From Acarospora socialis (lineage: Eukaryota; Ascomycota; Lecanoromycetes; Acarosporales; Acarosporaceae): a stretch of 64,000 nt of DNA. The stretch covers positions 1,550,001 through 1,614,000 of the forward strand of contig JAMYGW020000002.1 of NCBI GenBank assembly GCA_025617375.2, given 5' to 3'. Every line of letters starts with the position of its first letter. Position 1 is the stretch's first letter. The notes under the pieces are model-generated. The model saw nothing but the letters and a program-made list of their open reading frames with translations. It was not told the DNA's origin and made no database searches. Below are positions 5,822-6,704 of the stretch, piece by piece. The position numbers were made by a program, and so were the translations under genes.

Positions 5822-6704
5822 TTAAGATTTGTCGCCCGTCGAGGTGGAGAGCTTGTTGGCTAGGTCTGTTAATGGAGACAAATGTTAGCACAAGGGTCCA
5901 TAGTATCTAACGAAGACAGGGCCAGAGAGCTTACCCCCTAGAGCATTCGAGGCGGTACCAGCAACGTTGGCGAGTCCCTGCTGAGCGGATTGAAGGTAGC
6001 TCTGGCTCGTCTCGGAAGCATTGTCGGTGGCAGAGCGAGCTGTGTCGGAGACAGAGCCAGCCGTATCGGAGAGCCCTTTCTGAGCGGATTGAGCATAACT
6101 CTTGCTTGTATCCGCAGCGTTGTTGGTGCCAGAGCGGGTAGAATCGGACACAGAGCCAGCCGTATCGGAGAGCTCTTTCTGAGCGGATTGAGCATAGCTC
6201 TTGCTCGTATCGGCAGCGTTGTTGGTGCCAGAGCGGGTAGAATCGGACACAGAGCCAGCCGTATCGGAGACTTTATCCTGAGCGGACTGGAGGTAGCTCT
6301 TGGTTTTGTCCGACGCGTCGTTGGCGCCAGAGCGCGTGGAATCAGAGAGCTGTTGGCTCGTGGATTTGGAATCGTCTGGGTTCTCGAATCAGTATGCATA
6401 CAATAAGGTGATGCCAAGCTCGCTATAAGCCGACGTTATTGGTCAAGTGGGAATGAGCGAGAGCGAACATACTTGGCTGAACGGCACCTGCAACCTTATC
6501 ACCGGTAGAGGTTGCAGACTCAGACGCTCTATCGAGTGTAGATTTCTGAGAGTTTGGAGTGATGGTCTCTGAGACCTGATCACCAACGTTCTTACGTCTG
6601 CATCACGCAAGAGTCAGCTCAGGTTGAGAGTGAGCTAAAGGCGCGTTAGGGCAGGTGGAGCACAAGCCAAGGTTGATGTACTGTACATACCCAAGGTCAG
6701 ACAT
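5822..6704 (-). CDS. Hsp12/Hsp9-like stress protein with four 33-aa repeats
   Basis: The protein is 207 aa from four exons: 6704-6691, 6597-6473, 6375-5935, 5865-5822. The N-terminus (MSDLGRKNVGDQVSE, then ITPNSQKSTLDRASE and GDKVAGAVQP) matches the Hsp12/Hsp9 family, small hydrophilic proteins induced by heat, osmotic stress and starvation that associate with membranes. Family members are usually near 80-110 aa. Here the protein continues with four tandem 33-residue units (SDSTRSGTNNAADTSKSYAQ...LSDTAGSV), rich in Ala, Ser, Thr, Asp and Lys. The unit length is three times 11, which recalls LEA-type amphipathic helices. The last intron (GTAAGC, TGCTAAC, AACAG) is canonical, and splicing it gives the tail DLANKLSTSTGDKS. 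Exon 1 is 14 nt but carries the family's MSDxG start. Confidence 0.85.
5951..6346 (-). repeat. Four tandem 99-bp coding repeats
   Basis: The units are 6346-6248, 6247-6149, 6148-6050 and 6049-5951, each coding 33 residues. Units 2 and 3 differ by a single residue (KEL versus KGL) and are almost identical in DNA. Units 1 and 4 are more diverged. This points to recent duplication of the inner unit by unequal exchange or slippage. Confidence 0.9.

Follow-up and report, generated by a model that had tools for sequence, protein, structure and literature searches.

The predicted product of a minus-strand gene (6704-5822) in the 64-kb stretch of DNA analysed here (the window) is a member of a known family, the Hsp12/Hsp9 proteins, and its tandemly repeated tail is, as judged from the sequence, a real and correctly placed feature. 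We propose, with a probability of roughly 60 %, that it represents an Hsp12 whose C-terminal helix has been amplified to four 33-residue units, giving a long, weak 3-11 helix (three turns per 11 residues) that binds lipid. If this mechanism is true, the protein represents a length variant of Hsp12 that arose in nature, and it offers a direct test of whether helix length alone sets lipid binding and protection against desiccation. That question has so far been addressed with perilipin 4 constructs made for the purpose. A second lineage would then also have arrived at units of 33 residues with 99-bp DNA repeats as their coding sequence.

Gene model and family membership

The four exons join in frame into 624 nt of coding sequence, giving a 207-aa product that begins MSDLGRKN (Table 1). 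Pfam analysis matched HSP9_HSP12 (PF04119) to residues 1-59 along profile positions 1-59 of 59 (E value 1.2e-24, 87 bits against a curated cut-off of 26.3), while phmmer against proteins of solved structure returned yeast Hsp12 (three entries, among them 2l9q; E value 1.5e-13) in an alignment that is gapless over residues 1-93. MAFFT inserts a 7-column gap within repeat unit 1, where the phmmer alignment to yeast Hsp12 has none; we regard the register of unit 1 against yeast Hsp12 as likely. The in-frame exon joins, the HSP9_HSP12 match and the alignment of the units agree with the first-pass annotation, which had described a spliced Hsp12/Hsp9 N-terminus followed by four 33-aa units and had proposed the search with PF04119. 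Its placement of the repeats at 5951-6346 is exact, by arithmetic from the exon coordinates, and its estimate that the protein has roughly doubled in size holds (207 aa vs 109 in yeast Hsp12, owing to the four 33-residue units). This length lies outside the ~80-110 aa given for Hsp12/Hsp9 proteins, which is a usual trait of the family and not its definition.

Table 1. Features of the Hsp12/Hsp9 locus. Exons and introns follow a sequence-only model in which introns were placed by eye from consensus sites.
Feature	Position in window	Strand	Description
Exon 1	6691..6704	-	14 nt; start codon begins at 6704
Intron 1	6690-6598	-	93 nt, GT..AG
Exon 2	6473..6597	-	125 nt; bulk of HSP9_HSP12 domain
Intron 2		-	97 nt, GT..AG
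Exon 3	5935..6375	-	441 nt; end of HSP9_HSP12 domain and complete repeat array; splice sites inferred
Intron 3		-	69 nt, GT..AG
Exon 4	5822..5865	-	44 nt; C-terminal end and stop codon, ending at 5822
Repeat unit 1	6248..6346	-	Residues 57-89; inside phmmer gapless stretch to yeast Hsp12
Repeat unit 2	6149..6247	-	Residues 90-122
Repeat unit 3	6050..6148	-	Residues 123-155
Repeat unit 4	5951..6049	-	Residues 156-188; most diverged unit
Antisense open frame	5942..6406	+	154 aa stop-to-stop, spans array; 98-degree moment 0.330

The genome searched comprises 31.1 Mb in 38 contigs. Gene content and ITS lead us to take it as fungal, and the ITS resembles that of filamentous ascomycetes, perhaps Dothideomycetes. 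Its two 5.8S loci (L007 and L008; G000 contigs C18 and C28) are non-identical in 5.8S/ITS, the second being shorter (matched stretch of 151 vs 154 bases). A nucleotide search of this genome with exon-3 DNA returned exon 3 itself as the sole match, and a single-exon search in which only the best candidates were scored returned at least one HSP9_HSP12 match. Upstream of the gene, two STRE motifs are present in 1000 bp against 1.4 expected (p 0.42), no excess over chance, and the upstream promoter region examined holds no match to a heat-shock element. Rfam returned no match within the 64-kb window. Elsewhere in the window, positions 357-817 hold a fold-back, MITE-like element with long inverted arms around a 12-bp tandem repeat (arm complementarity: 381-445/728-792, 91 %; 357-385/789-817, 90 %; 438-526/648-736, 83 %); a search of the genome with one arm gave 13 matches, several of which form inverted pairs.

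Among the titles and abstract openings listed in our literature searches, which mostly covered work outside subscription journals, none described an Hsp12 with tandem 33-residue repeats. Pattern searches gave 71 matches in a collection of prokaryotic genome contigs and four in a collection of viral contigs, with 0 relatives among either, and both collections are uninformative for other fungi.

Structure of the repeat array

The four 33-aa units occupy residues 57-188 (window 6346-5951, 99 bp each), and TRF independently detected an array at 5981-6343 with a period of 99, 3.7 copies and a score of 456. The inner two units are almost identical, as first described, with 32/33 aa and 94/99 nt shared between units 2 and 3. 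Unit 1 shares 24/33 aa with both unit 2 (77/99 nt) and unit 3 (76/99 nt) and 15/33 aa (63/99 nt) with unit 4, while unit 4 shares 18/33 aa (70/99 nt) with unit 2 and 19/33 aa (69/99 nt) with unit 3. Residue identity is 0.49 at a lag of 33 vs 0.18 at a lag of 11; the sequence repeat is therefore 33 residues long, and the 11-residue period is a physical one.

The near-identity of units 2 and 3 had been taken as a sign that the copy number is still changing. It is consistent with such change, but only weakly so: the five differences in 99 bases comprise four synonymous and one non-synonymous, corresponding to a dS of about 0.18, and the latest exchange between these units is thus not brand new. 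Values of dN/dS between units range from 0.08 to 0.38 over all six pairs, an estimate that inter-unit conversion complicates.

Amphipathic periodicity and origin of the repeats

The array has a hydrophobic moment of 0.303 at 98.18 degrees vs 0.146 at 100 degrees, with a mean hydrophobicity of about 0, and 2000 shuffles of the array gave a mean of 0.048 and a maximum of 0.156. As repeated sequence gives sharp peaks by itself, every unit was also tested singly against 5000 shuffles of its own residues, returning p values of 0, 0, 0 and 0.0004 for units 1-4. The phase is kept from residue 57 to the end of the protein (moment 0.309), residues 1-56 are without the 98-degree signal (p 0.48), and in units 1, 3 and 4 the acidic residues are found on the side of the helix away from the apolar face (p 0.0015, 0.018 and 0.012, respectively). 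Array and tail together probably form a weak, long 3-11 amphipathic helix of ~150 residues (57 to end). Conservation of this amphipathicity beyond random substitution is only suggestive, with p_mu <=0.05 in 1/7 comparisons (range 0.031-0.146). The array carries a net charge of -4 (units 1-4: -1, -1, 0 and -2), and its hydrophobic, aromatic and charged fractions are 0.265, 0.03 and 0.197, respectively; the whole protein is rich in Ser, Thr and Ala and has a net charge of -5.

A scan of the window for stop-to-stop frames with a lower length limit of 132 aa covered 74 frames, of which just two have a moment above 0.20: the repeat exon (0.316) and the antisense frame of that exon. The antisense frame is probably a hydropathy mirror of the sense repeats rather than a gene, and as its moment is higher than that of the sense frame, the moment statistic alone is no proof of coding.

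Residues 54-93 of yeast Hsp12 peak at 98.0 degrees with a moment of 0.334, a value reached in 0/1000 shuffles; helix IV of the yeast protein is reported to span residues 74-94 by NMR (PMC3407059). Given that unit 1 lies inside the gapless yeast alignment and that the C-terminal part of yeast Hsp12 has the same angle, the array looks like an amplified last helix of Hsp12, and in-frame amplification of that helix is the most economical reading of its origin, although not a proven one. Comparison of units 1-4 with yeast Hsp12 residues 46-93 returned p values of 0.006, 0.001, 0.001 and 0.014 against plain shuffles and of 0.30, 0.021, 0.066 and 0.063 against shuffles that keep residue class, only unit 2 falling below 0.05 in the latter. 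The repeats had initially been regarded as something added to Hsp12; they are better read as the C-terminal helix region of Hsp12 (unit 1) followed by extra copies (units 2-4).

Comparison with repeat-protein families

The first-pass annotation had also termed the repeats LEA-like and proposed a search with the LEA_4 model. The 11-residue periodicity stands, in the form of the 98-degree peak; membership of LEA_4 does not. LEA_4 (PF02987) was absent among the 13 Pfam families matched at E<=10 by the whole protein and among the eight matched at E<=1 by exon 3 alone, and membership was rejected on these grounds; within the genome, no LEA_4 match exceeded the cut-off, the best (E value 0.114) lying at another place. 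Perilipin (PF03036) was likewise missing from the whole-protein list of 13 families (E<=10), and no Perilipin match in the genome exceeded the cut-off (best E value 0.604). Homology to perilipins was rejected in the absence of a family match, and we do not claim shared ancestry with perilipin 4.

The best sub-threshold profiles for the repeats are YtxH and apolipoprotein families. The Apolipoprotein match (28.3 bits, E value 1.8e-6) falls short of the 90 bits set as its curated cut-off and, as YtxH scores about equally, reflects general amphipathic character; NCBIfam returned weak matches only, far under their cut-offs (GvpQ, 1.9e-4). Set against the hydrophilin criteria as given in PMC4190154, the glycine content is 7.2 % (>6 % for hydrophilins) and GRAVY is -0.905 (< -1 for hydrophilins). 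We replace the LEA label by a 3-11 amphipathic-helix reading, for which human perilipin 4 is the nearest analogue.

When the repeat was used as a query against the genome, it returned itself and one protein on contig C1 in two overlapping matches (E values 2.1e-5 and 0.0013), and the reverse search gave, at E<=0.01, no place besides these two; both sequences are composition-biased, and these E values are to be read with care. The contig C1 protein (L003:34-2001; G000 C1, about 223.3-225.3 kb) contains three Mito_carr stretches (E value 5.9e-44), its nearest solved structures being UCP2 and ADP/ATP carriers, and the same frame runs on through 278 further residues, a tail of Ser/Thr/Ala/Lys/Asp repeats 11/22 residues long. 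The helical moment of the tail is 0.247 at 98.18 degrees and peaks at 98.5 degrees. This tail has neither a DNA-level tandem repeat nor a LEA_4 match, and none of the entries listed in a literature search concerned such a carrier tail. It may be either a distant relative of the Hsp12 array or a product of convergence.

Proposed mechanism and alternative explanations

Hsp12 is reported to be disordered in solution and to form four helices on micelles or lipid (PMC3407059, PMC6164224), to remodel liposomes and, with trehalose, to protect yeast through drying (PMC6054528). On the lipid-helix reading that we favour, the protein would be disordered when free in the cell and, under heat, osmotic or drying stress, would fold where it meets phospholipid or neutral lipid, turning its Ala/Thr/Val/Leu/Tyr face to the surface. 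The extra units would enlarge the contact area, so that many weak contacts sum to firm but reversible binding, and the bound helix may then stabilise or remodel the membrane. Such length tuning of lipid binding is what the perilipin 4 work reports (PMC5889406): the 33-mer is described there as a weak determinant, and droplets are bound better as units are added, two being cytosolic and four partially targeted in HeLa cells, and four largely cytosolic in yeast. Reversal of the unit charge to -1 in the perilipin 4 4-mer is reported to abolish targeting and leave the protein cytosolic in HeLa cells (PMC5889406); because the units here stand at about -1, stress-induced, weak and reversible binding is favoured, and constitutive coating of droplets is not claimed. 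The net charge of the array, its low hydrophobic fraction and the largely cytosolic behaviour of the perilipin 4 four-mer in yeast all count against a lipid-binding helix, as do the p_mu values, the comparison with yeast Hsp12 under shuffles that keep residue class, the gap that MAFFT sets in unit 1 and the chance-level number of STRE motifs.

Several of these properties would also suit a soluble, LEA-style protectant, in which the repeats would contribute disordered, hydrophilic bulk and nothing more, acting during desiccation as a protein shield or space filler with no lipid binding. We consider this rather unlikely, despite the Ser/Thr/Ala-rich composition, the negative GRAVY and net charge of the protein, the report that Hsp12 itself prevents aggregation of dried enzyme (PMC6054528) and a negative net unit charge that argues against binding to negative membranes. 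An apolar face would be superfluous in a purely soluble filler, but at 98 degrees every unit outperforms the shuffles of its own residues, and LEA_4 is unmatched. It appears improbable that the array is a minisatellite that expanded neutrally, leaving function unchanged, within a disordered protein that tolerates it: unequal exchange readily lengthens tandem 99-bp arrays, units 2 and 3 hardly differ and the test for retained amphipathicity gave a weak result, but the low dN/dS in every unit pair (with the reservation about conversion), the presence of 4/4 units in frame and the retention of the 98-degree phase point the other way.

An artefact of the gene model or assembly would be very surprising. 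The introns were inferred by eye, but every junction keeps the frame and restores Hsp12 sequence, and the gapless phmmer alignment runs across exons 1-3. No two units show fewer than five base differences, and hence they do not represent a copied read, although further copies may have been collapsed.

Relationship to known systems

The protein shares its N-terminal domain with the Hsp12/Hsp9 proteins of yeasts and filamentous fungi, over 59/59 profile positions, and the 98-degree periodicity of its array with the C-terminal helix region of yeast Hsp12. With group 3 LEA proteins (LEA_4) it has 11-residue repeats and a disordered composition in common, and a role in drying may be suggested by analogy, but the LEA_4 model is unmatched here. 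The exchangeable apolipoproteins and alpha-synuclein are likewise reported to use 11-residue units that form 3-11 helices on lipid.

A broader and more tentative idea, to which we give limited credence, is convergence of a fungal Hsp12 with perilipin 4: a short peptide of membrane stress would have become a long, weak, length-tuned lipid coat through repeated in-frame duplication of a single 3 x 11 helix unit. Growth or grafting of weak 3-11 helices, as in the independent tail of the contig C1 carrier protein, is perhaps then a general fungal route to lipid coats that respond to stress. Both human perilipin 4 and the protein described here consist in part of tandem 33-residue (3 x 11) units from 99-bp repeats, with low hydrophobicity, few aromatic residues and 3-11 periodicity. 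Expansion of the human PLIN4 units (31 to 40) segregates with muscle disease (PMC7360652). The two differ in the number of units (4 here vs 29-31 in perilipin 4, given as 29 33-mers in PMC5889406) and, by the perilipin 4 values reported in the same paper (PMC5889406), in net charge per unit (about -1 vs +1) and in hydrophobic (26.5 % vs 35 %), aromatic (0.03 vs 0.002) and charged (0.197 vs 0.15) residues. The moment of 0.30 found here stands beside 0.257 for perilipin 4 and 0.30 for alpha-synuclein, a rough comparison, as the latter two are reported as means over consecutive helices (PMC5889406).
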